A stretch of DNA of 29,104 bases from IMG/VR virus record IMGVR_UViG_3300025874_000059, positions 1 through 29,104 of that record. One strand, written 5' to 3'. The notes under the pieces were generated by a model. The model did no database searches. It saw nothing but the letters and a program-made list of their open reading frames with translations, and was not told the DNA's origin. Origin of the DNA: a virus. The position numbers were made by a program, and so were the translations under genes. Positions 1 through 23,176 of the stretch are shown piece by piece. The stretch's first letter is position 1. Every line of letters starts with the position of its first letter.

Positions 1-72
1 GTACAAAATAATTTATTATTCAAGTCGCTTAAATTTATTTCTGTTATAACATCGTAATTCGTGTTATACGTA

Positions 73-1350
73 TTAAGCGTTTTCTCCAAAGTTGTAATCA
101 TAACCTTCTATTTCTTTTATATTTAATTGATATTTTATAAACACCTCTCTAATTTTCCACAAAACATCTTCTTCATCCTCATCAAAGTCAAACAAAAAAC
201 TATCATAAGTATAAAGCACTAGCTTTGTCTTGTATCCCCGTAATATACGAAACATATCCCACAAAACCAAACAGTTAACGCTTGTCTCCAAATTTTGTAA
301 CACATAGTTAAATAACTTTTGCGGATTCATATTATCCAAGTTTTCTTTTTTATACAAATATCCAGAAACCGGACATTCTATGAACCCGTCGCTTTGGAAC
401 TTATTCCAATTATCTCCTACGTATTTCTCTATTTTTTGGAAAAATTCAAGTCCTTTATATTCCTTAAAGACTCCACCATAGAGCTGTTTGAAAGTAAGCT
501 CTTTCGCTTTCTTATAATCCACTTTATATAGGGAAGCAAAATGAGCGTGAATATCACTAGTGGTAAAAGTATAATCAATGAGGCGAGCAGCCAAGCTAGG
601 ATGGTAAGCACTAATATCAATTTCCACAAACTTGTTATTACGTGGTATAAAACTTTTCCTACATCCATTTTCTTTATTAAGTGCCGCATAATTTACATTT
701 TTAAATTTATTTGATGGTCTTGTTGTTGTTGTTTTTAAGTTGAACTGTGTGTAGACATATTCACCATCAACGGGGTGGAAGTATTCACTGAAGGTTTTAT
801 TGTGTATTCGTACTCCATTTCTCTCGATGGCGTTGAATACCATTGAGGTTTTACTGTTAAAGAATTCATCATATTTTGTTTTTTCTTTGTTAATATTCGC
901 TTTTAGATCTCCAAAAATTATCTCGCACAATTCATAATGTTTAACAATGGGTATAATTAGGTTTAACTCATGGTTATCCTTGTGTTTACTATAGTATAAA
1001 TCGTGTGTTGGCGTTGTAGGGCGTATATATGTATGAGGAGGTGGAGTTATGTCATAAAGAGTTTTGTTTGGAAAATAATGTAATGTTTCCTTTTTATCAC
1101 GACAATATAACACTTCAAACTTATCTATCAATTCGTTTACACGCGTATTTAAAGCATTTAAAGATTCACTATGCGTAACGCATACCATAAAGCCTTTGCT
1201 CGCTTCAATTGGTCTAATATACACTAAACTTACGTGGTTTAATACAGGGTGGATCGTGTCATTATAAGGTATTACCTCAATGAACGCCTTTTTATAACCA
1301 CTATTTATCAAAACATTTAACTGTTCCTCGTTTTCTACAAGCCAGTACAT
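73..1350 (-). CDS. Short, divergent family A (Pol I-like) DNA polymerase
   Basis: 425 aa. The C-terminal half carries the family A polymerase signatures in order. A T/R motif lies near 206-212 (TTTTRPS, matching the TGR of Pol I). Motif A is at 243-256 (EIDISAYHPSLAAR) with the likely metal ligand D245. The O-helix is at 283-292 (K-x3-F-x3-YG: K283, F287, Y291, G292). Motif C is at 380-385 (YTYDSF) with D383. Odd point: motif C is normally HDE, but here Tyr replaces His and Ser replaces Glu. The first ~150 residues show no clear 3'-5' exonuclease motifs, and the whole protein is far shorter than full-length Pol I. T4 itself uses a family B polymerase, so this could be an accessory, repair or priming polymerase, or the replicase of a divergent lineage. 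It follows the baseplate operon after 33 bp, with no motif of the late-gene type in front. Confidence 0.75.
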   Translation of the reverse strand: MYWLVENEEQLNVLINSGYKKAFIEVIPYNDTIHPVLNHVSLVYIRPIEASKGFMVCVTHSESLNALNTRVNELIDKFEVLYCRDKKETLHYFPNKTLYDITPPPHTYIRPTTPTHDLYYSKHKDNHELNLIIPIVKHYELCEIIFGDLKANINKEKTKYDEFFNSKTSMVFNAIERNGVRIHNKTFSEYFHPVDGEYVYTQFNLKTTTTRPSNKFKNVNYAALNKENGCRKSFIPRNNKFVEIDISAYHPSLAARLIDYTFTTSDIHAHFASLYKVDYKKAKELTFKQLYGGVFKEYKGLEFFQKIEKYVGDNWNKFQSDGFIECPVSGYLYKKENLDNMNPQKLFNYVLQNLETSVNCLVLWDMFRILRGYKTKLVLYTYDSFLFDFDEDEEDVLWKIREVFIKYQLNIKEIEGYDYNFGENA

Positions 1351-1383: not shown

Positions 1384-2235
1384 TTAGTAGCCTCCAAATG
1401 TATTTGTACTTGTTTTAGTAGGTTCATTATACGAACCGGATTGTATAGTTGGAGGTAAGGGGTTTAATATAGAACCCGTTGGTATAAATTCCAAATAGTC
1501 ATGGGCTTCCATTTTATGTTGTCTTCCAACCATTGGTCCTTTTTCAGGATGTATATGGTAATAACCTATATAAGCTTTTTTAGTTTTAGTATATCTTATT
1601 TCTTTCCCATTACTGTACAAATTTTCATTTTTACCGTAATTATAATATTGAGAGTATTTTTTATTAAAATAGTTTGAAAAACCATATATTTGTTGGTTTT
1701 GTTCAGTTAATCTTACACTATTATAATTAGATTTAGATACTTCTTTTTCTTTACCCGTTAACGCCCAAGTCAGTTGGATTGGGGTGTATTTACCAAATTG
1801 AACTGATGGGGATTTGTTTATGAATTGTTGGTATATTTGTTGGTTTGTTTCTTGTGTTGTTCTTTGTGGAAAGGTGTATAAAAAATACCTATTAAAAAAC
1901 CCATTTTTATAATCTTGGGGGGTAGGTTGGGGATTAGTTTGTTTAGGAGATTGGGGAGCTCTACCAAGTTTAAAACCTTGTTGTTTTTGTAAAAATTTAT
2001 AAGAAGGTGACCAATAAGTGTCTTGAATTATTTCTAAATCATTTCCATAATCAACATCATCCCTAATAGGTACTAATACATCATTTGGTTTATCATCAGG
2101 ATTTTTTCCTGTAAATCTTTGATTATTAGAAACTTGATAGTAATATCCTTTATATGGTTTGCTAGTAAAAGAAATCATATATTCATCACCATTAGTGTAT
2201 AAATTTTCTACTATTTGTGATTTAGGATAATACAT
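1384..2235 (-). CDS. Putative baseplate/tail structural protein with an internal duplication
   Basis: 283 aa and not assignable to a named T4 protein. It is the last gene of the tight baseplate operon, with only 2 bp separating it from the hub-lysozyme gene, so a baseplate or tail-tip role is inferred from position. The N-terminal segment around residues 10-45 (ENLYTNGDEY...PYKGYYYQ) resembles the C-terminal segment around 205-255 (ENLYSNGKEI...AYIGYYHIHPEKGPMVG), suggesting two copies of one small domain separated by a Gln/Asn/Pro-rich linker. The second copy ends in a His-rich stretch (GYYHIHP, GRQHKMEAHDYL) that could bind metal; this is speculation. No signal peptide or membrane segment is visible. 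Confidence 0.7.
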   Translation of the reverse strand: MYYPKSQIVENLYTNGDEYMISFTSKPYKGYYYQVSNNQRFTGKNPDDKPNDVLVPIRDDVDYGNDLEIIQDTYWSPSYKFLQKQQGFKLGRAPQSPKQTNPQPTPQDYKNGFFNRYFLYTFPQRTTQETNQQIYQQFINKSPSVQFGKYTPIQLTWALTGKEKEVSKSNYNSVRLTEQNQQIYGFSNYFNKKYSQYYNYGKNENLYSNGKEIRYTKTKKAYIGYYHIHPEKGPMVGRQHKMEAHDYLEFIPTGSILNPLPPTIQSGSYNEPTKTSTNTFGGY

Positions 2236-2237: not shown

Positions 2238-5200
2238 TTATGATGTTGGGTTTCCGGGGTTATCTGTAAACCAAATATCTGCTTCTTCCATTCTTCTTGA
2301 TTGCAGTAAAGTTGGTTTATCTTTTGTTCCTATAATTGTTTTTTCTAATTGATACCCCGCCGATACATAGTCTTTAGAATTAATAAAATTATATAGTGGT
2401 TTTTTAGGATCTGAAACTCCATAACCAGAATTATAAGAAAAATGTAAAAGGGCATCATATTCATTTTGAGTAAGGGGGACTTTTATTCTCCCATTTGCAA
2501 CCATATTTTTACCAAAGTTGGTTGCAACGTCATTAAATCCTTTATTAGCGGATTCTTCTGTAATTGTGTCTCCTAACCGAATTTCAGATGAGCTGTTTCT
2601 TCCAAATGCCCCATTATATGTTAATAATTGAGGTTGTGAGTTAGATCCTATTGGGGTTCGAGTATACTGTTGGCCAGGGGTATAAAAAGTTTGTCCATAT
2701 CCTATTGTAACAGGTTTTCCATCATCCGCACCTGGGTCATCGTATGCTTTCAACCTTAATGCCTCTGATTTTTTAAGCTTTTGTCTAATAAAATTAGAAG
2801 GAGTAAGTTGAGTAGCAGGGAACCTTTGTGCCGTACCATTTATACTTCTATCTCCTGAAATGACTAAAGGGTTAGATTGGTCTAATCCTAAGAAAGAAAA
2901 TAACCCATTATCAATTAATTCAGTGTTTTCAATTTTAGTAGGGGGAATACTAATAGTAACTAATTGAGTTTCCCATTTTTCATCCACTATTTGGTGGTTT
3001 ACTTTTTGAATAACAAAATCTATTGTATTAGTTAAAGCACTAGATATATATTCGGGTGGTAAAAATTTTTGGTTAATATTTAATTTTTGGTATAGTTTAA
3101 CTCCTGAAATACCCTCCAATGTTAAACTTAATTCTACAGGAATAAATCCTTGTTGATTTGAGGGGTTACCTGTTAATCTATATATTTTTTGATCCCTTAG
3201 TCTAATATATTCTTTAAATGCTTTTTTTCCTTGACTAGAAAATGTAGAATTTGCTACATTAAGATATAAAGCTTCTCCTGGGGTAACTGTAAAGTCTTCC
3301 CCTTGTTCGTTTGTTTTACCTACGATTATACCACTAAAGGCATATATAAGCCAAGATTGGTAAGAAGAAGATAAATCAATATCATCCTGTGTTAATACAT
3401 TTAACCCTGCTCCTTGTTTCCATGAAATATAACCACTTATAAAACTTTCAAGTGATTCATTTTGAAAAGAATATCCTTTATATTTACCTGACTTTGTTGA
3501 TAAAATTATATATCCACCATTTCTAGCATACTGTTTACCACTTTGGTCTTTATCCCAAATTAATTTATTTCCTGAGTCTTTATTGGCTTCTGATGCTTCT
3601 TTATCTTCTTTAGCTACATAATCAGCAGCATGACTTCTTGCACCTCGTTTACCTTGACCTTGCTTAAAGGGTTTAGTTTTTCCCCACCATGATGTTAATT
3701 CTTCTCGTATTACTTCTTGTTTGTTATTTTCATTATCTTGTTCTCTTTCAGTTGGGGTTTTAAATTCACTAGGAAGGACAATTTTCTTTTGAAATCTGTC
3801 TTGAAGACCTGCATTCCATTTTGAAAAAGCTGTTCCATCTGTAACTTTAGTAGTTGACCCCCCGGCTGTAGTTCCTATGGTTATCATAGAAGCTAAATTA
3901 GAATCTATTTTAGTAGCAAAATTAAAGTTTTTTACAAAATTTGATTGATTGTTAGATGAATTAAATCCAAAAATTTCAAAAGGAACAACATCTGTTGGGT
4001 CTGGGACTTTAGAGAGTAATTTTTTGATTAGTAGATCATTGCCTTTTATAGGGTTTTGATCAATAAATACTATTTCATTTCTTTCAGAATTGATAATGGG
4101 TTCAATTTTGTTTACACTACCTAAGGAACTATTTATACCATCGCATATACCTTCTAAAAAATTAAATAAACTTAATTCATTATCTTTTGATATATTTCTT
4201 TTTAATAACTTTTTTATAAATGAAAAATTTAAGTATATGTTCATTAATTTTCCATAAAATAAATCTTTATCACCCTCATGTTCAAGAACAAAAAATTCCT
4301 TAATCCAATTACTTCGAAAAATAGATGGAACAGTTACCCCATTAACATAAATTTGAGGTTTAACAAAACAAATATTAAGATCAAAAGATATCTGGTTGGG
4401 TTGGGCGCTGACAACATTTAAGTTTTCATCTAACCCCATAGATAATATAGGTACTGCTTCTTTATTTTCTACTTTAGGAAGAATATTGTTATAAATTTTT
4501 GATAATACTTCACCAAAAGTAACAAAATAACTATTTTCTTTAGTAAGACCATCAACAATCCCTAATTTACCACTTAAACCAGGATTTTTTTTGAGCATTT
4601 TTTGATATTCTTCTTCTGCTTTTCTTTTTCTTTTTCCTTGATTTCCTCTTTTATTTTCATCATTAAATTCAAAACTTGGAGGTTCTTTATAGTTTATACT
4701 TTTAAGATTAATATATTTACCATTACCCCATACAGCTTTATTTTCAGTATCCGCCTTTACTTCATCATCTAACCATTGTTCTAAAGTAGTATCAGCAGTT
4801 GTTTCCCCATCTGCATTAGCTTTAAAAGATTTTATTGGAGCCGGAAGATTTAACTGTAAAGATTCTATAACATCTCCTAATGTAGTAAGTTTTAAAGTAA
4901 TATTATATACACCATCAGGTGAGAAATCCCAATTAAAATTTGTTACTCTACCAAAAAACCCATCATAGTTGCCTGAGTATTTCTTTCTATATGTTTCTAT
5001 TTTTTTTAATAATTCTAATTGACTATATCCTTGATTATCAAAAAATATATCTTCTATTATTGTATTTTCTACTTCTCTTAAACTCCCAGAATTATCTACA
5101 TATTTGTTAAAACCCCATTCTAACATCATAGTAAAACCTAATCTTAAATATAATAATTCAATAAGTTGAAATTGAAATGTATTATAAGCTTTTAATTGTA

Positions 5201-5834
5201 TTGTTGCAGATCTAATTGAACCTCTATTTATACAATCAATTTTCGCTGAGGTTATACCAGGCATAGGTTGTTTTCCAAATTGATTTCCTCCTAAACCATA
5301 TGCTGAAGTATCGTTCCAAATATTATCTGAAAAGTTTATGTCTGATCTTTGGGAAATTTTTCCATTTTTTAGTTCTCCTAACCCACCAAATAGTATAGAT
5401 TGTTTAGCTAAAGTTTCTTCACCCCCATATTGTTTTATTTGGGCTTCCGAAAATCCTAGGTTTTTTAATTTAGTTTTAGCTTCAGATAATTGTAATTTAT
5501 TATTTTCTTTTATTTGTTCAGAAATTAATTTATATTTTTCTTTACCTTGTTCAGATAATACAGGTAGATAAGGGACTACAATTTCATAGTCTTCGTCTTT
5601 TAAAATCCCACTACCTGCTTGGTCTTGAAATTCCTTTTCTGTTGGGATGATAGATGGGTTATAAAAATTAACTCCAGAAGCTAATTTTAAAAAAGAATTT
5701 TTATTATTTTGAAGTTGGATTTGATTTGGGGATTTTAATTTTGACCCAAACCCCACACCACTAAGCTCTTGTCGAGCTCGGATTTGATCGAATACATATG
5801 TATCAAACTGTTCTCCTATTAAATTTCCGGTCAT
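2238..5834 (-). CDS. Giant baseplate hub protein with C-terminal T4-type lysozyme domain
   Basis: 1198 aa. Roughly residues 1013-1198 form a GH24 (T4 lysozyme-like) muramidase: EALRLKAYDD at 1024-1033 followed by TIGYG from 1043 aligns with T4 lysozyme E11, D20 and T26, giving the candidate catalytic residues E1024, D1033 and T1043. A 4-residue insertion lies between D and T, and a ~35-residue insertion follows TIGYG. The later LTQNEYDALLHFSYNSG and SRRMEEADIW segments also fit the family. The first ~1000 residues look like hub or baseplate structure. In T4 the hub lysozyme belongs to gp5 and the hub ring is gp27; here a much larger protein carries the enzyme at its very C-terminus. The likely role is local peptidoglycan digestion during injection. 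It sits between a gp53/LysM-like gene and another baseplate-operon gene, with 2-bp gaps on both sides. The exact T4 counterpart of the N-terminus is uncertain. Confidence 0.85.
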   Translation of the reverse strand: MTGNLIGEQFDTYVFDQIRARQELSGVGFGSKLKSPNQIQLQNNKNSFLKLASGVNFYNPSIIPTEKEFQDQAGSGILKDEDYEIVVPYLPVLSEQGKEKYKLISEQIKENNKLQLSEAKTKLKNLGFSEAQIKQYGGEETLAKQSILFGGLGELKNGKISQRSDINFSDNIWNDTSAYGLGGNQFGKQPMPGITSAKIDCINRGSIRSATIQLKAYNTFQFQLIELLYLRLGFTMMLEWGFNKYVDNSGSLREVENTIIEDIFFDNQGYSQLELLKKIETYRKKYSGNYDGFFGRVTNFNWDFSPDGVYNITLKLTTLGDVIESLQLNLPAPIKSFKANADGETTADTTLEQWLDDEVKADTENKAVWGNGKYINLKSINYKEPPSFEFNDENKRGNQGKRKRKAEEEYQKMLKKNPGLSGKLGIVDGLTKENSYFVTFGEVLSKIYNNILPKVENKEAVPILSMGLDENLNVVSAQPNQISFDLNICFVKPQIYVNGVTVPSIFRSNWIKEFFVLEHEGDKDLFYGKLMNIYLNFSFIKKLLKRNISKDNELSLFNFLEGICDGINSSLGSVNKIEPIINSERNEIVFIDQNPIKGNDLLIKKLLSKVPDPTDVVPFEIFGFNSSNNQSNFVKNFNFATKIDSNLASMITIGTTAGGSTTKVTDGTAFSKWNAGLQDRFQKKIVLPSEFKTPTEREQDNENNKQEVIREELTSWWGKTKPFKQGQGKRGARSHAADYVAKEDKEASEANKDSGNKLIWDKDQSGKQYARNGGYIILSTKSGKYKGYSFQNESLESFISGYISWKQGAGLNVLTQDDIDLSSSYQSWLIYAFSGIIVGKTNEQGEDFTVTPGEALYLNVANSTFSSQGKKAFKEYIRLRDQKIYRLTGNPSNQQGFIPVELSLTLEGISGVKLYQKLNINQKFLPPEYISSALTNTIDFVIQKVNHQIVDEKWETQLVTISIPPTKIENTELIDNGLFSFLGLDQSNPLVISGDRSINGTAQRFPATQLTPSNFIRQKLKKSEALRLKAYDDPGADDGKPVTIGYGQTFYTPGQQYTRTPIGSNSQPQLLTYNGAFGRNSSSEIRLGDTITEESANKGFNDVATNFGKNMVANGRIKVPLTQNEYDALLHFSYNSGYGVSDPKKPLYNFINSKDYVSAGYQLEKTIIGTKDKPTLLQSRRMEEADIWFTDNPGNPTS

Positions 5835-5836
5835 AA

Positions 5837-6133
5837 CTATCTTTCATTTAAAATTCGAAACTCACTTATTAATTGAGCCGTGTTTTGAGGTATTCTAATT
5901 TGAATACCTATTGGAATATGGTATGAATTTTGTTCTAACCCTGGATTAGAGCATGATATAATCCACCAGAGTTTAGCATCGCCATAATGTTGTTGTGCTA
6001 ATTGATCAAATCTATCATCTTCCTGAGTAACTACATAAATATCATTTGAACTATAAGGTACAACAGGATATTTAGTAGTCCCATAGTATTTAATTCCTCT
6101 TCCATATATATTTGTAATTGAATATCTATCCAT
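5837..6133 (-). CDS. gp53-like baseplate wedge protein with LysM-type fold
   Basis: 98 aa. The central part (residues ~30-85: NDIYVVTQEDDRFDQLAQQHYGDAKLWWII, then SYHIPIGIQIRIP) has the LysM / tail protein X pattern: a strand, a helix with the xLAxxxYGDxxLWW signature, then a 'P.G..IRIP' strand. T4 gp53 is a LysM-containing baseplate wedge protein, and phage P2 gpX is another small tail LysM protein, so the assignment is to this class rather than to a proven orthologue. It lies 2-4 bp from its neighbours within the baseplate operon, which supports co-translation with the hub components. Confidence 0.72.
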   Translation of the reverse strand: MDRYSITNIYGRGIKYYGTTKYPVVPYSSNDIYVVTQEDDRFDQLAQQHYGDAKLWWIISCSNPGLEQNSYHIPIGIQIRIPQNTAQLISEFRILNER

Positions 6134-6137
6134 AATA

Positions 6138-8009
6138 TTAATTTATTCCTTTTGCTTTTTTAGTAAATACATCACCAACTAAGTCTGTGCCTTCTTGATT
6201 AGTTGTTGAAGAGGGTATAGTAAAGTTTTCAGAACCATTATTACCATCATAATTGTTTCCATTTTTATTCCTTAAGGCAATATACCTTTCATCACCCCAA
6301 GCAGATACAAAAGTAGAACCATTTTCAGTTAAACCCTCAAATGTGTTTTGTTGAATCCTTGGGACAAAATTATGTATAGGTTTAAATTCAAAACCGGTTA
6401 CAGTCATTATCATAGGTAATTCTTTAGTCTTTTTTCCCCCATCATTTGCCCCTGTTTCACTATCAACATCTATTTCAAATGGGGATTCTTTTGGGTAGGA
6501 TAAATTTAATCCAGTAATTATACCAGGTTGTTCATAACAATAACCTCCAAAAGTTAAATATGCAATATTTCCTTGCATGTAACCATTAGAACTGTAATCT
6601 GGGGCTAAACTTGAAGCCAGATAATTTAATTTTTGGTACATAGGAATTAATTCATCAATGGATTGGGCTGCTAATGTCCACCCCATAGATATTGATCTAC
6701 CAAAACCACCATATCTAAAGAAGCTTTCAGCTCTACCCATAAATTTTTCTTCACCCCATTGTGCTGAGTAATTATCTGAAAATGAATCTATAAATGCTCT
6801 AAAATGAATATACCTTTTTAATCCTTCAGGATTATTAGCATTATTATCTAATATTCCGATTCTAAATTTAATAAAATCATTTTTAATGTTGTTTCCAGCA
6901 TTTATTACATTAGTAGATTGGTAAAGAGGAAGGGCATTTAACTTATCTAAAGGACCAGTCCCAGTTCCAATATTGTAGTTTGATAAGTTTTTGTTTCTTC
7001 TTCCAGGATTACCAATATTAACTCTTTCTTCAAAATTCCCATTTGCACCACTTTGGTAATCTATGGTTGTTGAGATTAAAGAATTTGGTTTTCCTGGGTC
7101 TAGTGAAGTCCTAAAATCAGGTAATATTTGGTCTTTTGATTTTCCTACTTTAGAATCTGCAGCCGAAACTATTCCACTATAGTTGAGTAATTTAAATTCC
7201 TTTTTAAATTCTTCATTATCATATAATTGAGTATTAGTAGCTCTTCTTATAGTAGTTTGACCTACTCCTAAAATAGAGCCTGGACCTCCATTGTATCTTA
7301 GTATCTCTTGTTGGTTATCATTTATTCCTAACCCACTGTTACTATTTTTACCAAATAAATTATTAAGTAAACCACCACCAAATCCTTTTATACCCCCTCC
7401 AGTTAAAGAACCTAAAAAAGTATCAATGGAATTATTAGAATCGGTTTGTGCTACTCCTATTTTAGCTCCAACTAAATTTACTAATCTATTTGTTTCTGGT
7501 AGTTGTTTATTATTAACTCTCTTTACATATATAGGCTGTTCTAAAGGAAGCTCAGCATTTAGTATATTATCTAGTAACCCAATACCTGTATTAGCACCTG
7601 ATTGTGATGTGTTTTTAAAAGGGTTTATACCTTGTTTTAATAAATGTGATCCTGCAGATCCTACTGCTAGTTGAGCTAAAGTAGAAGTTGGAAGGTATAC
7701 CCCATCATTTATAGGGTTAAAAGATACATCTGAGCTGGATTGAATTTTTACTGAAGTACGAGATAAAATATTTTGTTTTGCAGCAAATTGTAACCCCTTA
7801 GGGGATATCATAAATTTACCCATTCGAGATAAATCATCACCTACATGCTGTAAAGTGTTTGCTCTTAAAAGAAAATCAGGACCACCAGTATCTCCAGGAG
7901 TACTGTCAATAGATTTGGTAATAAAAGGTTCTCTACTATCACCACCACCTATACGGTCTTGTCCATACCTTAATGATTTAAGGTCTGTTGTTAAATCTAA
8001 AAGCCCCAT
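6138..8009 (-). CDS. Baseplate structural protein, possibly gp48/gp54-like tube cap or initiator
   Basis: 623 aa. The N-terminal ~350 residues are Gly/Asn/Ser-rich and look like an extended structural segment. The C-terminal ~230 residues form a compact β-rich domain (starting around FIKFRIGILDN and including FRAFIDSFSDNY near residue 403, SMGWTLAAQSIDELIPMYQKLNYL, and a conserved-looking end at MTVTGFEFKPIHNFVPRIQ). It sits downstream of the tape measure and upstream of the gp53-like gene, where tube-cap or baseplate-hub genes are expected, so gp48/gp54-type function is inferred. The FRAFIDSF octapeptide also occurs in the gp15-like protein encoded at 20544-21467. It begins with MGLLD, as does the small protein encoded just upstream. 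A baseplate role is likely; the precise T4 equivalent is not proven. Confidence 0.72.
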   Translation of the reverse strand: MGLLDLTTDLKSLRYGQDRIGGGDSREPFITKSIDSTPGDTGGPDFLLRANTLQHVGDDLSRMGKFMISPKGLQFAAKQNILSRTSVKIQSSSDVSFNPINDGVYLPTSTLAQLAVGSAGSHLLKQGINPFKNTSQSGANTGIGLLDNILNAELPLEQPIYVKRVNNKQLPETNRLVNLVGAKIGVAQTDSNNSIDTFLGSLTGGGIKGFGGGLLNNLFGKNSNSGLGINDNQQEILRYNGGPGSILGVGQTTIRRATNTQLYDNEEFKKEFKLLNYSGIVSAADSKVGKSKDQILPDFRTSLDPGKPNSLISTTIDYQSGANGNFEERVNIGNPGRRNKNLSNYNIGTGTGPLDKLNALPLYQSTNVINAGNNIKNDFIKFRIGILDNNANNPEGLKRYIHFRAFIDSFSDNYSAQWGEEKFMGRAESFFRYGGFGRSISMGWTLAAQSIDELIPMYQKLNYLASSLAPDYSSNGYMQGNIAYLTFGGYCYEQPGIITGLNLSYPKESPFEIDVDSETGANDGGKKTKELPMIMTVTGFEFKPIHNFVPRIQQNTFEGLTENGSTFVSAWGDERYIALRNKNGNNYDGNNGSENFTIPSSTTNQEGTDLVGDVFTKKAKGIN

Positions 8010-8016
8010 ATTTTAT

Positions 8017-8223
8017 TTATCTAGGTAAATTATCTAAGTACTTTACTGGGTCAGCAGAATCTAAATTAGATGGTGCTGGTTTACCATTAAGTCTTGGAGT
8101 GCCGTCTACTGAATATGTGTCATGTAAAGTAGATGTTGAAAATTCAGGTGTTGAAGGGGTTACCCCATTTAAATTAGATAAGTTTGAACCACCTTGTGTT
8201 TGTAATTTGTCTAAAAGTCCCAT
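8017..8223 (-). CDS. Small virion-associated protein of unknown function
   Basis: 68 aa, Ser/Thr/Pro-rich with no predicted membrane segment. I do not recognise it. It is accepted as real because it fills the space between the tape measure and the 623-aa baseplate gene, starts 8 bp after a full copy of the recurrent promoter-like motif (8232-8246), and ends 7 bp before the next start. Its N-terminus, MGLLDKLQTQ, resembles that of the next protein (MGLLDLTTDL), and both start regions could be related by duplication or share a targeting role in the baseplate. It is probably the first gene of the 8223-1384 baseplate operon. Confidence 0.6.
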   Translation of the reverse strand: MGLLDKLQTQGGSNLSNLNGVTPSTPEFSTSTLHDTYSVDGTPRLNGKPAPSNLDSADPVKYLDNLPR

Positions 8224-8231
8224 AGTTATTG

Positions 8232-8246
8232 TTTTATTATAAATAT
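8232..8246 (-). promoter_or_regulatory. Promoter-like motif copy (baseplate operon)
   Basis: The coding-strand sequence is ATATTTATAATAAAA, ending 8 bp before the ATG at 8223. It is one of ten near-identical sites in the window, all upstream of late structural genes or phoH. I read it as the phage's late promoter or a translation-leader element. Confidence 0.55.
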
Positions 8247-8250
8247 TATA

Positions 8251-10266
8251 TTATTGTATTTGTCTAGAACCTACAGCAAAAGCAGTACCTACATTAGTAC
8301 TATCCATTTGAACTGTTCCTTCTTTACTTAAAATTTGTTTTAATAACATGTTTGTTTCACTCATATTAGCATTTCCTCCTGCTCCACCTTGTGTATTGAT
8401 ATTTGGAGAAACGGCAATACCATCTCCTGCTGCTGTAATATCCGTTGCACCAAATCTATCTGTAATAGTAAATGGTCCTTTTCCTGGAGGTGCAACTCCA
8501 TCTGCTACTGTTGATGCTATTCCCCCAACAACAGCTCCTGCAAGTGCTATTCCTGCTAATATAGGTAGAGAGGCAACACCAAATGTCATTGCAATTGCAA
8601 CTGCTGCTGCGGCTGCTGCTGCTACTAATAAATATTTACCAAAAGATTGAACTCCTTCAGATAATTTAGTCATTGCTCTTGTTTGCATTTCTGTTAAAGA
8701 TTGCATTTCCTCATTTGCTAGAACCTCATCTGATTTTCTATCTAAATCTTCTTGGGCCTGGGTGGATAATGCTTCTTGGCTTACTAAACTATCTGCTAAT
8801 TGGTCTGCACTCATTCCTAAGGCGCCCGCTAATGCTTGTTGTTGAATAACATTCATATTTTGTAGTTCTTCTAAACTACCTGCTTCTTCAACTAATGCTC
8901 TAGCTAATGCTTCTTGATCTCCTGCTAAAGCTGCTGCCCTAGCTTTTTCAAGATTTAAATCTCTACCAATTAACAATTCTGCCTCTAATTCTTTTTGGAT
9001 AGAAGATTCAAAATCTAATAATTGTCCTGCAGACCCTGCAACAGCACTCATTTCAATACCCAAAGATTTTGCTGTGGCAACTGCTTTTGTTAAACCACCT
9101 TCAATACCCATAGCATTAACTCGGGCTAAACCTGTTATTTTATTAGCTTCATCTAAAACATCTGATAATTTTAATCTAATACCAAATTCTCTTTCAGCAT
9201 CTAAAACTCCTTTTGCTTGTTCTTTTTCTAATGCTTTAAAACTTTTACCCGCAATCATAGCTTGTTTAGCCATGTTACCTACTGCTTCTTCTGATAATCC
9301 AAGCAATGCAAGTGATTCAGCTGCTCCTTCTCTAATATCTTTATCAAAGGCAATAGCCGTTCCCCCTAAAGCTTTATTTAGGGACATTACTGCTTTTTTC
9401 TGTTCTTTTATAGTAATACCAGTAAGACCTGCTGCCTTACTAGATTCATACATTTCATTTTTAAACTCCTTAGCTTCTTTTTTAGACATGCTAAGACCAC
9501 GAGCAATTTCAGTTGTAGATTGATCTGCCTTTTTAAATTGATCAAATAAAGCACCAGCTACTTTAAATAAAGCCCCTGCTGCACCTAACCTAACTGCAGA
9601 TTTATCTATATTTTCAAATAATTTTTTACTTAAATTCCTTGCATTTTGTAAACCTGTAACTTGTTTACCTGATGCATCCGATTGTTCTTTATTTAATTTT
9701 GCTGCTTCCGCTGCTGCTTTCTTAAAATTAAACAGCTTAGCTATACCACCTGCACCTGCCTTTTGGAGTATTCCTTCAACCCCATCAGCTAATTTACCCG
9801 CTATTCCTAAACTTTCTCTTTGTTTTTTATTTTGTGCCTCAAGGTTAGCTAGTATTTTTTTATCTAACGCAAAAGTTTCTTCTAAGGCAGAAATCTCATC
9901 TATGTTAAGTTGAACCCCTTCTCTTTTAAGGAATTCTATTTTTCTAAGGGTTATTGATTGTTGTTTTTGAACTTTTTCAACTTCTTTAATAAGTTCCGCT
10001 TCTATATCATACCCTGCAGCTACCTTTTTTTGAATAGCCGCATAATTATCTAATTGTTTAGAAGTTTGGTTTATAGCAGAAGTTATATCCCTACTATATG
10101 ATTTATATAATTTTTGAGTGGCATCATCGGCACCCTTTATTTTATCAGAAATTTGGGATTGAATAGAAGCACCTAAAGAAAGTAGTTGGTTATCTAAAGC
10201 TCCAATTTCCTCAGAAAATTTCTGTATTTCATCATTAGCTTTTTTTACATCGTCTCCTAAGGCCAT
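8251..10266 (-). CDS. Tail tape measure protein
   Basis: 671 aa. Residues 1-160 are heptad-rich coiled coil (Glu/Lys/Gln/Leu). A long helical central region rich in Ala and Glu follows. A strongly hydrophobic stretch around 550-590 (YLLVAAAAAAAVAIAM, then a Gly/Ala membrane-like segment) is followed by a short Gly-rich C-terminal tail. This helical architecture with a hydrophobic segment is typical of tape measure proteins, which set tail length and may enter the host membrane. It lies directly after the gp26-like gene and the out-of-frame chaperone ORF, as chaperone genes precede the tape measure in many tailed phages. The T4 tape measure gp29 is of similar size (about 590 aa). No peptidase or lysozyme motif is seen here; lysozyme is on the 1198-aa hub protein instead. 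Confidence 0.8.
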   Translation of the reverse strand: MALGDDVKKANDEIQKFSEEIGALDNQLLSLGASIQSQISDKIKGADDATQKLYKSYSRDITSAINQTSKQLDNYAAIQKKVAAGYDIEAELIKEVEKVQKQQSITLRKIEFLKREGVQLNIDEISALEETFALDKKILANLEAQNKKQRESLGIAGKLADGVEGILQKAGAGGIAKLFNFKKAAAEAAKLNKEQSDASGKQVTGLQNARNLSKKLFENIDKSAVRLGAAGALFKVAGALFDQFKKADQSTTEIARGLSMSKKEAKEFKNEMYESSKAAGLTGITIKEQKKAVMSLNKALGGTAIAFDKDIREGAAESLALLGLSEEAVGNMAKQAMIAGKSFKALEKEQAKGVLDAEREFGIRLKLSDVLDEANKITGLARVNAMGIEGGLTKAVATAKSLGIEMSAVAGSAGQLLDFESSIQKELEAELLIGRDLNLEKARAAALAGDQEALARALVEEAGSLEELQNMNVIQQQALAGALGMSADQLADSLVSQEALSTQAQEDLDRKSDEVLANEEMQSLTEMQTRAMTKLSEGVQSFGKYLLVAAAAAAAVAIAMTFGVASLPILAGIALAGAVVGGIASTVADGVAPPGKGPFTITDRFGATDITAAGDGIAVSPNINTQGGAGGNANMSETNMLLKQILSKEGTVQMDSTNVGTAFAVGSRQIQ

Positions 10267-10273
10267 ATGGGTA

Positions 10274-10288
10274 TTTTGTTATAAATAT
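10274..10288 (-). promoter_or_regulatory. Promoter-like motif copy (tape measure)
   Basis: The coding-strand sequence is ATATTTATAACAAAA, ending 7 bp before the tape-measure ATG at 10266. It has the C variant at the y position of the consensus ATATkTATAAyAAAA. Confidence 0.55.
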
Positions 10289-10302
10289 TAAAAGAAGGGA
10301 TT

Positions 10303-10587
10303 TTACTTATAACTAGTTTTATTTTGAAACTTAGGTTGATTTACTTGACCCTTAGTATTAACTAAAGAATCTTTGTCTTTAGATTTATTTGCTTTTTCAT
10401 TTTGGGACTTATTGTACTCATTTATTTCATGGAAAGTAAATTTACGTAACCAAATAGGCATATTATATATCGTAAACCAATCATAGCCTCCATTTCCATG
10501 GAAGACTATGTTATGTATTTGGGTAAATAAATTTTTTCTGTATATTGGGCTATTTTCCAAAGTCAGGCCAAAAAAATCCAACCCCAA
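10303..10587 (-). CDS. Tail assembly chaperone-like ORF, probably a frameshift extension
   Basis: A 94-codon frame overlapping the end of the gp26-like gene by 38 bp. The only start at its 5' end is TTG (10587); the first internal ATG is in YNMPIWL near residue 43. The segment GGYDWFTIYNMPIWLRKFTFHEINEYN resembles small tail-chaperone proteins of other tailed phages, in which a '(M)P.(W/Y)LR.F' core is followed by a charged tail. Its frame is +1 relative to the upstream gene, and the overlap contains GGA TTT TTT TGG (a T7 run) where a P-site Phe-tRNA could slip forward by one base. Position just before the tape measure matches the lambda G/GT arrangement. Either TTG initiation or a programmed frameshift fits; I favour the frameshift. 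Confidence 0.6.
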   Translation of the reverse strand: MGLDFFGLTLENSPIYRKNLFTQIHNIVFHGNGGYDWFTIYNMPIWLRKFTFHEINEYNKSQNEKANKSKDKDSLVNTKGQVNQPKFQNKTSYK

Positions 10588-11284
10588 TTGGAATTGTTTT
10601 TGTTGTTTCGCTACTTGAGGGAAAAAAAGTTAAATCTACATCTGGTGACATTGATTTAATGTATTCTCTAAGCGCACGAGCATCTCGTGCTAGCAGATAT
10701 TTATCTACAAATTCTCGAATATCTTTTTTATCTGTTTTTCCTTCAACTGAAAGTATTGTGTGTTTTAATCTTGTAGTAAGAGTAGGGTCCGATTCTTTAT
10801 TTATTTTCTTTAAACCATCCAGTTCACGTTGAATTTTTGTTTCATCCCCGTGATTTAATAACTTAAAAACAATTTCATTCCCAGAATGTGGGAATGTAAA
10901 GTTAAATTCATTTTTACCTGATTTAAACAAATCTTCATCTATAGTTGTATTTTCAATATCTGTTAAATCTACAGTTTCTTCTATCCCATCAAATGCAAAA
11001 GTGTAATCTTTACCATATCCTAAGATACGGGCCGCAATCATAATGGCGTTTTTATCCCCAATTAATAAATCATTATAATCTATTTTAGAAACAATTAATG
11101 ATTGAAATAATTTATCTAATACTGTTCCTTTTTGAATGTAAGAAGCATTGGTAAGAATGTCTTCTTCTTTAGCTGTCATATATTTAATTTCAATTTTTCC
11201 ATCAGCTAATGGTGAATCCTTTGAATATAAATACCCTTTAGAAGGTAAGTCTACTATTTCTGTTGCTAGTTTAAAATCTGCCAT
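10550..11284 (-). CDS. T4 gp26-like baseplate/tail assembly protein
   Basis: 244 aa. The N-terminal region (IVDLPSKGYLYSKDSPLADGKIEIKYMTAKEEDILTN, about residues 10-47, then KGTVLDKLFQSLIV) matches the pattern of the T4 baseplate-protein family that includes gp26, where 'LPS.G..Y' and 'MTA.EEDILT' are hallmarks. T4 gp26 is about 208 aa and takes part in baseplate hub assembly. Proteins of this type immediately before the tape measure can also act as tail assembly chaperones, and the overlapping +1 ORF here strengthens that idea. A core-only variant of the promoter-like motif lies at 11316-11325. The stop codon falls inside the overlap that holds the possible slippery run. Confidence 0.75.
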   Translation of the reverse strand: MADFKLATEIVDLPSKGYLYSKDSPLADGKIEIKYMTAKEEDILTNASYIQKGTVLDKLFQSLIVSKIDYNDLLIGDKNAIMIAARILGYGKDYTFAFDGIEETVDLTDIENTTIDEDLFKSGKNEFNFTFPHSGNEIVFKLLNHGDETKIQRELDGLKKINKESDPTLTTRLKHTILSVEGKTDKKDIREFVDKYLLARDARALREYIKSMSPDVDLTFFPSSSETTKTIPIGVGFFWPDFGK

Positions 11285-11315
11285 AATCTTTATTTAATAA
11301 TAACGTTTGTTCATA

Positions 11316-11325
11316 TTATACATAT
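11316..11325 (-). promoter_or_regulatory. Promoter-like motif core (gp26-like gene)
   Basis: The coding strand reads ATATGTATAA followed by TATGAA. Only the 10-base core matches the recurrent motif; the AAAA tail is not conserved. It lies 31 bp before the ATG at 11284. Confidence 0.4.
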
Positions 11326-11361
11326 GAATATAATATATTTTTAATGCACTTCCACATAATT

Positions 11362-12114
11362 TTAAAAGAAAAGTTTATTAGTTTTTGTTTCAGGATCATA
11401 ATAATAATGCCCTTGAAATGTTATTCTTGAATCTCCTTCTTTTAATTCAAATCCCCCAATTCTATGAGATAATTTTGCTTCCCATATATGTAAACTACCT
11501 AATTGATATTCTTCTGTAGCAGGAACACCAGAATTTGTATTAATAATAATAGAATTAGCTGGGCCACTTCCATGGGTACTAAAAGATGATGATTTGGTAG
11601 GACCAGTTTCATATTCTAAATAAGGGGTAGTACCTTTAGATTCTATAAGGATAACAAATGAATATATTTTGTTAATATCAAGATTAGGATAATAATCTAC
11701 AATACTAACATCAGTATGATATTTAAACTCATTAAAAGGTTGAGGGTGGGAAGCATATACATGAAACCCAGGTATAGTAAGATCAGGTTCTAATTCAGAT
11801 TCTATGGATGTAATTTCTGTAATTTTATTTATGGTTTTTGTATATAACCAATAAAATTTTTCTAATAGTGCAAATTGGGTTCCTAAGGTTATATCTTCCT
11901 TATGTCCCTCTAATCTATATAACGGATCACCTAAAAGATATTCTGCTTTGTATTGGTCCTTTAAAACTTCTATAATGGGGGTGTCTTTATAAGGTAATAA
12001 ACCTGAATTCCTATATTGGGAGGAATGTTTCCAATATTGTTTTAAATCATAAACTCCATCTTTAATTAAATTAATTTCAGATAAAGATAAAAAGTTTGGA
12101 TAGTTTTGAACCAT
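11362..12114 (-). CDS. 2-oxoglutarate/Fe(II)-dependent dioxygenase
   Basis: 250 aa. The double-stranded β-helix signature is present: HxD at 133-135 (KYHTDVS), a distal His at 217 (KLSHRIG) and Arg at 230 (SRITFQGH). This is the expected 2-His-1-carboxylate iron triad plus the 2OG-binding Arg 13 residues after the distal His. The family hydroxylates proteins, nucleic acids or small molecules; the substrate here is unknown. The gene lies between the tube gene and the gp26-like gene, inside the tail block, suggesting that it either modifies virion proteins or is a moron. It begins 15 bp after a strong intrinsic terminator and has no copy of the promoter-like motif, so its expression probably depends on readthrough or an unrecognised promoter. 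Confidence 0.8.
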   Translation of the reverse strand: MVQNYPNFLSLSEINLIKDGVYDLKQYWKHSSQYRNSGLLPYKDTPIIEVLKDQYKAEYLLGDPLYRLEGHKEDITLGTQFALLEKFYWLYTKTINKITEITSIESELEPDLTIPGFHVYASHPQPFNEFKYHTDVSIVDYYPNLDINKIYSFVILIESKGTTPYLEYETGPTKSSSFSTHGSGPANSIIINTNSGVPATEEYQLGSLHIWEAKLSHRIGGFELKEGDSRITFQGHYYYDPETKTNKLFF

Positions 12115-12128
12115 ATAACTAAGATAAG

Positions 12129-12151
12129 AAAAAGCCTGGCCGAAGCCAAGC
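12129..12151 (-). terminator. Intrinsic terminator after the tail tube gene
   Basis: On the minus strand, GCTTGGC-TTCG-GCCAGGC forms a 7-bp stem (one G-U pair) with a UUCG tetraloop, followed at once by TTTTT. It lies 30 bp after the gp19 stop. The opposite strand lacks an equally good T run. Confidence 0.85.
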
Positions 12152-12181
12152 TATTTTCTAAATCAGGGGTGGGTAAAATTT

Positions 12182-12670
12182 TTAGAAGTTTAAGATACAA
12201 TAATCTGGTTGTACTGTAATGCTTATGTTCTGAGCAGTATCTACAGTATCCCAATTATAATCTCCAAATGATGTGCTTGTAATAAATGCACCTTTTATAA
12301 TCCATTCAGATACAATATCTCCTACAGGTCCTAGTACGTTAAAAGTAAGATCTTTTTTATAGAAATCACTATACCCATCACGACCAGTAACTGATTCGTG
12401 GTGTAAACGTACCCATTCCATAGTTGCTTGTGCTCCCGATGGTGTAATTGGGTCAAATAATGTTAAAGAAATTGGATCCCAAGTGGATTTTCCTTTTACA
12501 TATCTTGATACATTAATATGATTTAATTCAACTGTACCTTGTGATAAGGTTACAGCCCCTACTTCTTTTACTAAATAAGCAGGAATACCGTCAATATACA
12601 TGACGAATCTGTTTGCTTGTTTTGGCTCAAAAGCGGTGAAAAATATTTCGTTTGGATCTAATACTGCCAT
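12182..12670 (-). CDS. 19: Tail tube protein gp19
   Basis: 162 aa, nearly the same length as T4 gp19 (163 aa). The N-terminal segment FEPKQANRFVMYIDGIPAYLV is the family's 'P...NRF...I.G....L' entry into the tube β-barrel. The central part, WDPISLTLFDPITPSGAQATMEWVRLHHE, is characteristic of tube proteins. The C-terminus (GAFITSTSFGDYNWDT...ISITVQPDYCIL) matches the usual last strands. Its position directly downstream of the sheath gene is the T4 order 18-19. A full promoter-like motif precedes it and a strong terminator follows, so it can be made as its own transcript, consistent with a highly abundant structural protein. Confidence 0.93.
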   Translation of the reverse strand: MAVLDPNEIFFTAFEPKQANRFVMYIDGIPAYLVKEVGAVTLSQGTVELNHINVSRYVKGKSTWDPISLTLFDPITPSGAQATMEWVRLHHESVTGRDGYSDFYKKDLTFNVLGPVGDIVSEWIIKGAFITSTSFGDYNWDTVDTAQNISITVQPDYCILNF

Positions 12671-12682
12671 TTTATTTTTTTA

Positions 12683-12697
12683 TTTTATTATAAATAT
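12683..12697 (-). promoter_or_regulatory. Promoter-like motif copy (tail tube)
   Basis: The coding-strand sequence is ATATTTATAATAAAA, ending 12 bp before the gp19 ATG at 12670. Confidence 0.55.
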
Positions 12698-12712
12698 TTA
12701 TCTTTTTAATTC

Positions 12713-15064
12713 TTACGCTGGAAATGTTGCTCCAGTTGGTAGTACATTGAAATCTAGGATTACAAATTCTGCTGTTTTTGTTGGTTGTAAGAAAATCTGA
12801 CCTACTAACTCATTTCTATCTATTGTAGATGCCGTGTTATTAGTATCATCCATTACTACTTTAAAAGCATATAATCCTTGTCTTTGTTGTACTCCTTCTA
12901 AATATGGGTTAACTACACTTAAGAAGTTATTTCTTGTAGCAATTGTATTTTGTTCAAATACTAAACCATCAGCTACTCCAGATATAAATCCTTTAAGGGA
13001 AATTAATAGTCTACGTACATTTACTCTATCTAAAGCACTAGCACGTTTTTGTAATGTTTTTTGACCAAATACAACTACTCCTGATTGTGGGAAAGTTGCT
13101 AATGGGTTAACGTTTGCTTCATATAAAGTATCTCTATTAGTTGCAGATAATTTTCTTTCAGCTCTAACTACTTGACCTAAAGCTCCTCTAGTTAATCCAG
13201 CAGGTGCAAACCATGGTTCACTTGAAGCGTCTGTAAATACATACACTCCAGGAATTACAGTTGAAGCTGGTGAATAAACTAATTCACCTGTTTGTGGATC
13301 GATCATTTGAACCCATGGCCAATAAGTTGCAGCATAACTGTTATCAAATGCAGAAGCTGCTTGTGAAACTGATGCTATTGAACTACCATATTTTACTAAA
13401 TCTAGTACTGCGATTGCATCGCCTCTTTGGATTGTATTTGATAATAAAGATGTTGTTTGAGTTGCGTGAGTTGCGTTAAGTAACCCAGGAGCACTAATAA
13501 CATTATATTGGTATTCATCTATATTTCCTAATAAAGCAATCGCGTTATCATAATTACTACCAGTTAACCCTTGTGTATCAAATGCAGCACCATCTCCTAT
13601 GTTTCCATAAAAGTTAGCAACACGTCCCGAGGTGGCAGTTGTTATATTTTCTCCACTAGCTCCATTAAATGAACCAGAAGATACTGCTGGTAAAGAACCT
13701 GTAAATTGAGCTTTTGCTTGACCATTATTATCGAAATAATTTGGTGTTTTTAAATTTACTGATTTTACTCTTACATATCTTGATAAATTAGCATAAGATC
13801 CTGATTCTTGAATAAAGTAATCTGATCCTTCATTAACTAAATTTTTATTAATGTCACCAATTTGTGCTGATATATAATTTGGTTGATATGGGTCTAGTGA
13901 TAAGTTATTATATTGTTCTAATACTACTTGTTGGTTTGTATTATCATTACCTCTACGAATAATTAAACTAAATGTTCCTGAAGCTGTATTTACTGAAGGA
14001 ATTGACCAACGAACATTTTCTGCTGATCCTGTTGATAAAGCACCACCTGTTAATTCGGTTGTACCTGTATTCATTACTGCTCCTTCTGAAATTGTTTCTA
14101 ATTCAAAAGGTGTAACATCATCTGATAAATTAGCAGCAACTAAAGTTACTGTAAAAGTTCCGGCAGTTAAATCTGCTGCTGTTACTGTAAGTACTACATC
14201 TGTACCTGCTACTCCTCCTAAAGCTGTTTGTATATCGGCTGCAGACCAAGTAAATGTATCATTTACTTTAACTCCTTCTCCAGCTGATGTAGCTGCAATT
14301 GCTGTTAAATTTGAAGCACCTGCTCCACCTGCAAACGTTAAAGACCAAGCTTGACCAGTTGCAGTTGTACTTGTTGTTGATGAAGGGTTAATTGTAGTTG
14401 TTCCTGCATCATAAGTATCTGTTGCTGCAAATCCAGTTGATCCTAATAAACTAGTTGTTACAATTGGTGAACCACCATTATCGTTTGTTGAAAAAGTTAA
14501 TGTATCTCCTAAATTGTACCCTGTACCCGCTGTTGAAGCTGTTATTGCTACTGGTGCGCCAGCAGATGTATCTAATTTAAATGTTGCTCCTGTTCCACTT
14601 CCATTTGTTGTAAATGTAGCACTTGTATAAGTTACTGCACCCGAACCTGTAAAATCTGAACCAGCATCAACACCTGCAGCAAATAAAGCTGCGGCATTAG
14701 TAGCTATATCAGCACCTGTACCTGTTTTTAATTCTGAACCATCTACGGTGTTAATAAATGAACTTGTAGCAGAAGTAAAGGTTTCTGGAGTTACTCTAGT
14801 AACTAGTAAACTTGTTCCACCACTTTGAAAATAGTTATTCGCTGCTAATGAAGTCAAATATGAATAAGCAATGGATGCACTTTGTACTGTAGTACCAAAA
14901 ATTGCTGTATATTCACTAAAAGAGGTAACCAATGTAGGTACTTCAACAGGTCCTAAAGCAGCTGGTCCTATAATAGCAGCACCAATTTCTGCGGGTTGTT
15001 GAGTAATAAATGATTGGTCGTTTTCTCTAGCTAATACACCTGGAGATAATAATGTTTCTGCCAT
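12713..15064 (-). CDS. 18: Contractile tail sheath protein gp18
   Basis: 783 aa. The N-terminus (LLSPGVLARENDQSFI...AAIIGPAALGPVEVPTLVTSFSEYTAIFG) is the classical sheath start, with 'SPGV...E.D', 'GPA..GP...PTLVTS..EY...FG'. The C-terminal ~220 residues (from the VFTDASSEPWFAPAGLTRG region through FGQKTLQKRASALDRVNVRRLLISLK to the end) form the conserved core that mediates sheath-sheath and sheath-tube contacts. T4 gp18 is 659 aa; the extra length here is mainly a Gly/Thr/Ala/Ser-rich stretch at about residues 110-330, which looks like surface-exposed β or Ig-like insertions. The gene is followed directly by the tube gene, and a promoter-like motif (T-to-G variant) stands 24 bp upstream of the start. 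Confidence 0.93.
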   Translation of the reverse strand: MAETLLSPGVLARENDQSFITQQPAEIGAAIIGPAALGPVEVPTLVTSFSEYTAIFGTTVQSASIAYSYLTSLAANNYFQSGGTSLLVTRVTPETFTSATSSFINTVDGSELKTGTGADIATNAAALFAAGVDAGSDFTGSGAVTYTSATFTTNGSGTGATFKLDTSAGAPVAITASTAGTGYNLGDTLTFSTNDNGGSPIVTTSLLGSTGFAATDTYDAGTTTINPSSTTSTTATGQAWSLTFAGGAGASNLTAIAATSAGEGVKVNDTFTWSAADIQTALGGVAGTDVVLTVTAADLTAGTFTVTLVAANLSDDVTPFELETISEGAVMNTGTTELTGGALSTGSAENVRWSIPSVNTASGTFSLIIRRGNDNTNQQVVLEQYNNLSLDPYQPNYISAQIGDINKNLVNEGSDYFIQESGSYANLSRYVRVKSVNLKTPNYFDNNGQAKAQFTGSLPAVSSGSFNGASGENITTATSGRVANFYGNIGDGAAFDTQGLTGSNYDNAIALLGNIDEYQYNVISAPGLLNATHATQTTSLLSNTIQRGDAIAVLDLVKYGSSIASVSQAASAFDNSYAATYWPWVQMIDPQTGELVYSPASTVIPGVYVFTDASSEPWFAPAGLTRGALGQVVRAERKLSATNRDTLYEANVNPLATFPQSGVVVFGQKTLQKRASALDRVNVRRLLISLKGFISGVADGLVFEQNTIATRNNFLSVVNPYLEGVQQRQGLYAFKVVMDDTNNTASTIDRNELVGQIFLQPTKTAEFVILDFNVLPTGATFPA

Positions 15065-15088
15065 CTTTATATGTTATTTTTAATATTG

Positions 15089-15103
15089 TTTTATTATACA
15101 TAT
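15089..15103 (-). promoter_or_regulatory. Promoter-like motif copy (tail sheath)
   Basis: The coding-strand sequence is ATATGTATAATAAAA, ending 24 bp before the sheath ATG at 15064. It carries the G variant at the k position. Confidence 0.55.
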
Positions 15104-15122
15104 TAAAGACTTTCTCAAAGAA

Positions 15123-15374
15123 CTATTTTAGTTTAATAAATTCTCCTTTTTCTAGGTCAATATTACCTTCTCCATACTTTTCTTGTAATTCTTTACCTGT
15201 TTTTTCTTGGTCTTGGAGGAGTGATTGATATTGGTTTTGGAGATTTTTTTTATCCTTTTCTAAAAATACTTTCCTTAATTCAATTTGGCCTAGGGAAAAA
15301 GTAATTTCGTTTTCTGATCTTTGGAAATCTTTTAATTTTTGTAACTCTTCTTGTAATAACTTTGTTGTACTCAT
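15123..15374 (-). CDS. Small coiled-coil protein of unknown function
   Basis: 83 aa, highly charged and almost entirely helical by inspection. Heptad-like Leu/Ile/Phe spacing runs from about residue 5 to 68 (LLQEELQKLKDF...LGQIELRKVFLEKDKKNLQNQYQSLLQDQ), so a coiled coil, perhaps prefoldin-like, is likely. I do not recognise a family. It lies between the glycosyltransferase cassette and the sheath gene and has its own copy of the promoter-like motif only 6 bp upstream of the ATG. It is thus probably expressed with the tail genes. A small assembly chaperone or scaffold for sheath or tail completion is possible but unproven. Confidence 0.65.
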   Translation of the reverse strand: MSTTKLLQEELQKLKDFQRSENEITFSLGQIELRKVFLEKDKKNLQNQYQSLLQDQEKTGKELQEKYGEGNIDLEKGEFIKLK

Positions 15375-15380
15375 TTTTTA

Positions 15381-15396
15381 TTTTGTTTATAAATAT
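15381..15396 (-). promoter_or_regulatory. Promoter-like motif copy (coiled-coil gene), with a second core nearby
   Basis: The coding-strand sequence is ATATTTATAAACAAAA (one base longer than the others), ending 6 bp before the ATG at 15374. A second copy of the core (ATATTTATAATA) lies at 15410-15421, inside the last codons of the upstream glycosyltransferase gene, making a tandem pair. Confidence 0.5.
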
Positions 15397-15398
15397 TA

Positions 15399-19479: not shown

Positions 19480-19678
19480 TTAAACCAAATTTACTATATT
19501 TGTACCATAATCGTTCGTGAAAAAAATACAAAATCATTTTTGTAAATACCTCTACACCACCAATAGCTAAACCAGTTGTCCAACTACCTGTTATAACACC
19601 TGATAGGATAATAGTATCTATTGTTCCTATTATTCTCCATGAAAATGTTTTAGCAATATGTCGTTTATAGCTTACCAT
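19460..19678 (-). CDS. Small DUF2061-type membrane protein
   Basis: 72 aa. The sequence KRHIAKTFSWRIIGTIDTII, a hydrophobic first segment (residues ~17-33), a Gly/Ala-rich second segment (~34-55), and the terminal ILYFFHERLWYKY fit the DUF2061 (PF09834-type) pattern, whose hallmark is the 'K..LY..HER.W' end. These are small integral membrane proteins of unknown biochemical role, sometimes encoded next to adenylylsulfate kinase genes. Here a CysC-like kinase gene is two genes upstream. The start overlaps the nucleotidyltransferase gene by 14 bp and the stop overlaps the next gene by 20 bp. It could anchor the cassette's enzymes at the membrane; that is inference. Confidence 0.8.
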   Translation of the reverse strand: MVSYKRHIAKTFSWRIIGTIDTIILSGVITGSWTTGLAIGGVEVFTKMILYFFHERLWYKYSKFGLNDKDKA

Positions 19679-20491: not shown

Positions 20492-20543
20492 ATAACGTTA
20501 TTTTTGTAACCATAATGTACGTAACTAATTTAATTAATCCAAA

Positions 20544-21997: not shown

Positions 21998-22000
21998 ATA

Positions 22001-23152: not shown

Positions 23153-23160
23153 AATCTATA

Positions 23161-23175
23161 TTTTGTTATAAATAT
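23161..23175 (-). promoter_or_regulatory. Promoter-like motif copy (neck operon)
   Basis: The coding-strand sequence is ATATTTATAACAAAA, ending 8 bp before the gp13 ATG at 23152. It starts directly after the terminator at 23177-23202. Confidence 0.55.
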
Positions 23176-23176
23176 G

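Follow-up and report, generated by a model that had tools for sequence, protein, structure and literature searches.

Background

Divergent family A DNA polymerases designated divPolA1 have been reported from 14 phages, among them Flavobacterium phage immuto (Yutin et al. 2024, Virol J 21:200, PMC11348598). In that description, the palm residues are kept, the thumb is truncated and the exonuclease is inactivated. Each gene accompanies a regular polymerase (PolA, PolB or PolC) and is followed by replication genes, and its surroundings are better conserved than those of the 'regular' polymerases (PMC11348598). Evidence on two of the residues that are changed in these proteins comes from the PolA of Thermus phage vB_Tt72, an active polymerase that carries a Ser at the position of E883 of Pol I (PMC9324360). 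Its S616A variant retains 76% of the activity and replacement of either catalytic Asp by Ala leaves 4%, while E389A, at the E710 position, brings activity down to 35% (PMC9324360).

The divPolA1 gene and its surroundings

The DNA analysed here (the window) is a virus fragment of 29,104 bases that, besides a divPolA1 gene, consists mostly of a T4-like structural module. ORF analysis places the divPolA1 gene on the minus strand with an ATG start and a length of 425 aa; the plus strand across 73-1350 has many stop codons. The features are as follows.

1..89, minus strand: conserved partner gene, 5' end only, with a TTG start at 89; overlaps the polymerase 3' end
73..1350, minus strand: divPolA1 short family A DNA polymerase, from motifs, profiles and an AlphaFold2 model
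1384..2235, minus strand: 283-aa protein encoded upstream of the polymerase; a protein that shares its C-terminal sequence lies upstream in the related contig L008 (9094-9966)
2238..28978, minus strand: T4-like structural module with a lysozyme-bearing hub, baseplate wedge, tube, sheath, PhoH and gp23-type major capsid protein

The L008 counterpart of the 283-aa protein gave no Pfam or PHROG match, and we do not argue that this protein belongs to the polymerase module. The nearest named relatives of the window's capsid protein and sheath are Flavobacterium phage immuto, Microcystis phage Mel-JY01 and LR756508, a 484 kb uncultured phage, and all three also carry divPolA1. The proximity of phoH to the structural genes is consistent with the far-T4 phages of Roux et al. 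2015 (PMC4360716). Within the structural module, the 1198-aa hub protein (2238-5834) has a C-terminal phage lysozyme domain; the protein in hub position of L008 (5581-9090) differs from it at the C-terminal end, and relatives may thus exchange the lytic domain. Two large proteins of 598 and 763 aa lie within the structural gene cluster (15399-19479), the 763-aa one with a glycosyltransferase profile match, and a fibre-like protein (23228-23893) has tandem GSLSGSFTGSADIT repeats and, after them, a small C-terminal domain.

The window protein is homologous to immuto gp1 (QQO91680.1) over its full length, with about 39% identity (tblastn E 3e-73), and it has the palm catalytic residues and the truncated thumb of divPolA1. 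It is thus a member of a family that is already published. Homologues are numerous: one search gave 122 confirmed stretches with divPolA1 homologues, and two alignment-based scans returned at least 600 rows each. A reading of this DNA made earlier from its letters (the sequence-only reading) had proposed a specialised lineage of phage polymerases. This is borne out for a lineage of family A, in a T4-like background and with the predicted palm and fixed motif changes described below; the novelty does not stand, since the lineage has been published as divPolA1 (PMC11348598). The main text of that paper does not discuss the invariant E710-to-His change or the linked partner gene.

Fold and domains

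The single divPolA1 protein matches phrog_17 in PHROG (E 8.6e-6). A phmmer search with this one sequence gave nothing useful from the PDB or Pfam, where the family profile alone succeeded. PF00476 was matched in 57 of the 78 family members, and the 78-sequence profile (A5) retrieved E. coli Klenow from the PDB (E 2.9e-8) and, more weakly, the Bst and Taq polymerases. Profile-profile comparison with five PolA gave E 2e-10. Judged by these comparisons, homology to family A is beyond chance. The AlphaFold2 model (mean pLDDT 92.2, pTM 0.90) predicts a polymerase palm, and its best 50 Foldseek matches in the PDB are all PolA-type polymerases (apicoplast, Pol I, Taq, Bst, theta, nu), with a TMq of 0.75-0.77 for Klenow. 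The following regions were delimited.

Residues 1-155: degenerate exonuclease-like domain, as implied by superposition of the model on Klenow
Residues 159-190: palm start
Residues 209-214: motif 1 (T-x-R-P-S-N)
Residues 245-253: motif A, D245 in DISAYHPSL
Residues 279-293: motif B / O helix, K283-x3-F287-x3-Y291-G
Residues 345-356: Pol I Q849-type motif
Residues 376-389: motif C (KLVLYTYDSFLFDF), Y382-D383-S384

The N-terminal domain shows no exonuclease similarity by sequence, either in Pfam or by hhalign against exonuclease domains. Since residues 160-425 alone (62% of the chain) could not reach a TMq of 0.77, the N-terminal domain would have to superpose on the Klenow exonuclease domain as well, and the model implies that residues 1-155 form a degenerate domain of this kind. 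E176 and R211 are separated by 35 residues, as against 127 between the corresponding Glu 541 (in IERNG) and Arg668 of Klenow, so the thumb is nearly gone; the equivalent spacing is 23-41 residues across the 78 homologues. The canonical Pol I-type thumb subdomain, of about 100 residues, is absent from divPolA1. Loss of the thumb is expected to cost a polymerase DNA affinity.

The sequence-only reading had assigned the gene to family A, and the phrog_17, PF00476, Klenow and profile-profile matches agree with it, as does the palm predicted in the model. It had also seen no proofreading domain, which is right at the level of sequence and incomplete at that of the model, where residues 1-155 are implied to be exonuclease-like. 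Features beyond that reading are the loss of the thumb, the replacement of E710 by His and the downstream gene linked to divPolA1.

Two other assignments were rejected. The look of DISAYHPS together with YDS hints at family B; the O-helix pattern K-x3-F-x3-YG and the profile matches, all to PolA, exclude it, and divPolA1 has neither a PF00136 match nor the motif spacing of a family B gp43. A T7-type RNA polymerase is absent from the matches, and similarity to it in sequence or fold is not above that to DNA polymerases.

Active site and conservation

By alignment with Pol I, R668 corresponds to R211, D705 to D245, E710 to H250, K758 to K283, F762 to F287, Y766 to Y291 and Q849 to Q352, and H881-D882-E883 of motif C to Y382-D383-S384. 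The motif residues named in the sequence-only reading (D245, K283/F287/Y291, D383 and a YDS motif C) are all correct. The two catalytic Asp residues, the O-helix Lys and the equivalents of Phe762, Tyr766, Arg668 and Gln849 are unchanged in 78 aligned homologues. In a set of 120 non-redundant representatives, clustered at 85% identity, D245, H250, K283, R211, E355, Y382 and D383 are kept in all 120, and F287, Y291 and Q352 in 119; position 384 is Ser in 77 and Ala in 43. The search patterns of two later scans contained motif C, and counts of this motif there are therefore partly circular. The unbiased count comes from close loci found without motif C in the search, where YDS was present in 81/81, the window's own copy included. 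H250 was part of no search pattern.

Neither the HDE motif C nor the steric-gate Glu of motif A, both typical of Pol I, is present: the homologues have YD[S/A], and every one has His at the E710 position. Comparison of divPolA1 with nine relatives gave a dN/dS of 0.14-0.22, indicative of strong purifying selection. Together with the conserved motifs, this rules out decay of the family, and the altered motif C is an ancient, family-wide signature instead of damage. Two individual copies deviate. The homologue at L073 10001-11287, in an otherwise intact frame, has an altered motif A (DVKSMH) and NS for YG in motif B, and this lone exception is possibly dead or repurposed. In L056 (10001-11275), a stop two codons ahead of the usual end removes the final residues only.

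Since Tt72 PolA is active with Ser at the E883 position, YDS and YDA are compatible with catalysis and YDS is no sign of its loss; by this analogy, the altered motif C would carry little functional weight. More out of the ordinary is the replacement of E710 by His. No tested precedent for an invariant His at this position was found in the open-licence literature and, with the activity of Tt72 E389A at 35%, divPolA1 may have low activity or a changed choice of substrate.

Linked partner gene and downstream module

A small gene of 126-157 aa lies downstream of divPolA1 in 234/260 loci, and most of the others end too soon. This gene may be the partner of divPolA1. In the window, its product begins (M)EKTLNTYNTNYDVITEINLSDLNNKLFC... 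and the gene is interrupted by the contig end. When the partner alone served as query, all 80 of the 80 nearest loci had divPolA1 upstream in the same orientation, in most cases overlapping it. A search for distant partners found divPolA1 within the flank in 50/79, with too little upstream sequence in 18. This left 11 apparent absences; of eight of these contigs that were tested, seven carry divPolA1 at a greater distance upstream and one is a fragment of 8.7 kb. Of 50,697 phage records, six contain the full divPolA1, and the full partner is present in these six and in no other. Invariant residues of the partner include HRK(K)xxNTxYTxNxLN and a Trp. Its AlphaFold2 model is of moderate quality (pLDDT 87, pTM 0.74), no convincing match was obtained among Pfam, PHROG, PDB sequences or PDB folds, and, with a median net charge of 0, the protein has no clear basic character.

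In relatives, the order downstream is divPolA1, partner, gp32-like SSB, UvsX/RecA, 5'-3' exonuclease and DnaB helicase. The window ends 72 bp past the divPolA1 stop; in L008, which is 85% identical, the replication genes follow directly. In the branch to which the huge phage LR756508 belongs, divPolA1 and partner are separated in about 50 loci by a larger gene family with a median length of 460 aa (e.g. L087 13010-14086).

A second polymerase in the relatives

The family B domain PF00136 was found in ten long relatives (G002, G005, G006, G018, G028, G029, G030, G031, G032 and G033) and also in Mel-JY01 and LR756508. In G030 the partner is present and divPolA1 is not on the contig, which has only about 300 bases ahead of the partner. 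A full-length PF00476 PolA of about 780-800 aa occurs in immuto and in G012-G017. A search of the long relatives with immuto gp72 gave no match, as expected for those with a PolB in its place. A match to PolC (PF07733, bacterial Pol III alpha) came from LR756508 only. This 484 kb phage (L087, L109, L110, L289) has divPolA1, PolB in pieces and the PF07733 match, and possibly carries three polymerase families, as far as profiles tell.

The family B polymerase is split in the window's nearest clade. In G002, which belongs to the window's clade and whose divPolA1 is 77% identical, it forms two ORFs with four ORFs between them: a 569-aa part with the exonuclease and motifs A and B (L104, 52527-54236) and a 318-aa part that begins at motif C (55924-56880). 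In G005 and G006, and probably in G031 and G033 too, gp43 is likewise divided between motifs B and C. A 241-aa gene just past the split gp43 in L104 may encode a gp45-type sliding clamp, a candidate without Pfam confirmation. Rhodothermus phage RM378 has a split PolB, and neither divPolA1 nor the partner.

The sequence-only reading had raised the presence of another polymerase elsewhere in the genome. There is none in the 29 kb window, nor was a second polymerase found in G001, a fragment of 120 kb that is the nearest of the long relatives (85% identical); nearly all long relatives have a PolB or PolA, from which we infer that divPolA1 is probably a second enzyme beside a canonical polymerase in the window's phage as well. 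That reading had also set against itself the pairing of a family B gp43 with decayed motifs in relatives: the gp43 is present in close relatives, and the decay is false. With intact motifs and a gp43 in close relatives, divPolA1 is probably an additional polymerase and not a replacement of gp43.

Proposed function

In our view, divPolA1 is probably a second, catalytically competent, exonuclease-dead and nearly thumbless polymerase for short synthesis, possibly stabilized by the partner, with family B gp43 or full-length PolA as the main replicase of these far-T4 phages. It would perform short, low-processivity DNA synthesis, filling gaps or extending intermediates of recombination or primer removal, alongside the gp32-like SSB, UvsX/RecA, 5'-3' exonuclease and DnaB helicase, in the setting of recombination-dependent replication or repair. 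The small partner protein could contact divPolA1 and hold it on DNA, replacing the missing thumb. The co-location with recombination genes fits several roles.

A stricter arrangement, rather unlikely, is that divPolA1 and its 126-157 aa neighbour are the two obligate subunits of one polymerase, with the thumb supplied in trans, the His changing sugar or base selectivity, e.g. towards tolerance of ribonucleotides or modified nucleotides. It is improbable that divPolA1 is the main replicase and the gp43 or PolA elsewhere accessory. The gene does head a conserved replication/recombination cluster, in surroundings better conserved than those around the 'regular' polymerases (PMC11348598), but it lacks a thumb and a detectable proofreading site, the relatives encode a polymerase that does have an exonuclease domain, either PolA or, together with a palm domain, PolB, and a genome of more than 150 kb is unlikely to be copied by a proofreading-dead, thumbless enzyme. 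Synthesis of RNA or mixed primers through a changed sugar gate, in the manner of a primase or RNA polymerase, has little probability. The ribonucleotide-excluding Glu (E710 of Pol I) is His in every homologue, the third residue of motif C is Ser or Ala, as in the HDS of T7 RNA polymerase, and an RNA polymerase role was raised for the separate divPolA2 by Yutin et al. (PMC11348598); against this, the DNA-polymerase residues Phe (F762) and Gln (Q849) are retained, the best fold matches are DNA polymerases, immuto encodes its own DnaG primase and Tt72 PolA, with its Ser, is a DNA polymerase. Equally doubtful is a catalytically dead DNA-binding scaffold or regulator, which the degenerate exonuclease, lost thumb, non-canonical motif C and broken motif B of L073 would suit, but not the catalytic Asp pair and O-helix Lys kept in 120/120 representatives under strong purifying selection.

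The odd motif characterises a family found in a common phage group and is not the mark of a decayed gene, and, to judge by the relatives, these phages run two DNA polymerases. The strict linkage to a small gene of unrecognised fold offers a testable lead on how a thumbless polymerase functions, and the fixed Glu-to-His change makes the sugar selectivity of a natural PolA testable.

Comparison with known polymerases

The divPolA1 protein shares with E. coli Klenow the palm and fingers fold, motifs A, B and C, and the equivalents of Arg668, Lys758, Phe762, Tyr766, Gln849, Asp705 and Asp882. It differs in a thumb region about 90 residues shorter, in His for E710 and in YD[S/A] for HDE. Unlike E. 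coli Pol I, it has no sequence-level exonuclease motif or 5' nuclease domain, the 5' nuclease being a separate nearby gene. With T7 RNA polymerase it has in common a Ser as third motif C residue (HDS) and a motif A without Glu at D+5; this position is Gly there and His in divPolA1, and the O helix of the T7 enzyme has Met for Phe. T7 RNA polymerase gave no sequence match to divPolA1 and lies outside the best fold matches.

Among phage enzymes, Tt72 PolA resembles divPolA1 in its Ser at the E883 position and is active, whereas it keeps E389 (E710), a 107-residue thumb and strong proofreading (PMC9324360). The divPolA2 of barbaviruses is likewise an extra exonuclease-less, thumb-less PolA beside PolB, but by description its N-terminal domain is unrelated and its neighbourhood variable (PMC11348598). 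The closest likeness is to immuto gp1, which shares the truncated thumb and the intact Asp pair of the palm and, probably, the loss of the exonuclease sites; to judge by the window's relatives, downstream replication genes and coexistence with a regular polymerase are likely to be common to both as well. The two differ in that other polymerase, which is a split family B gp43 in close relatives of the window protein and a full PolA in immuto.
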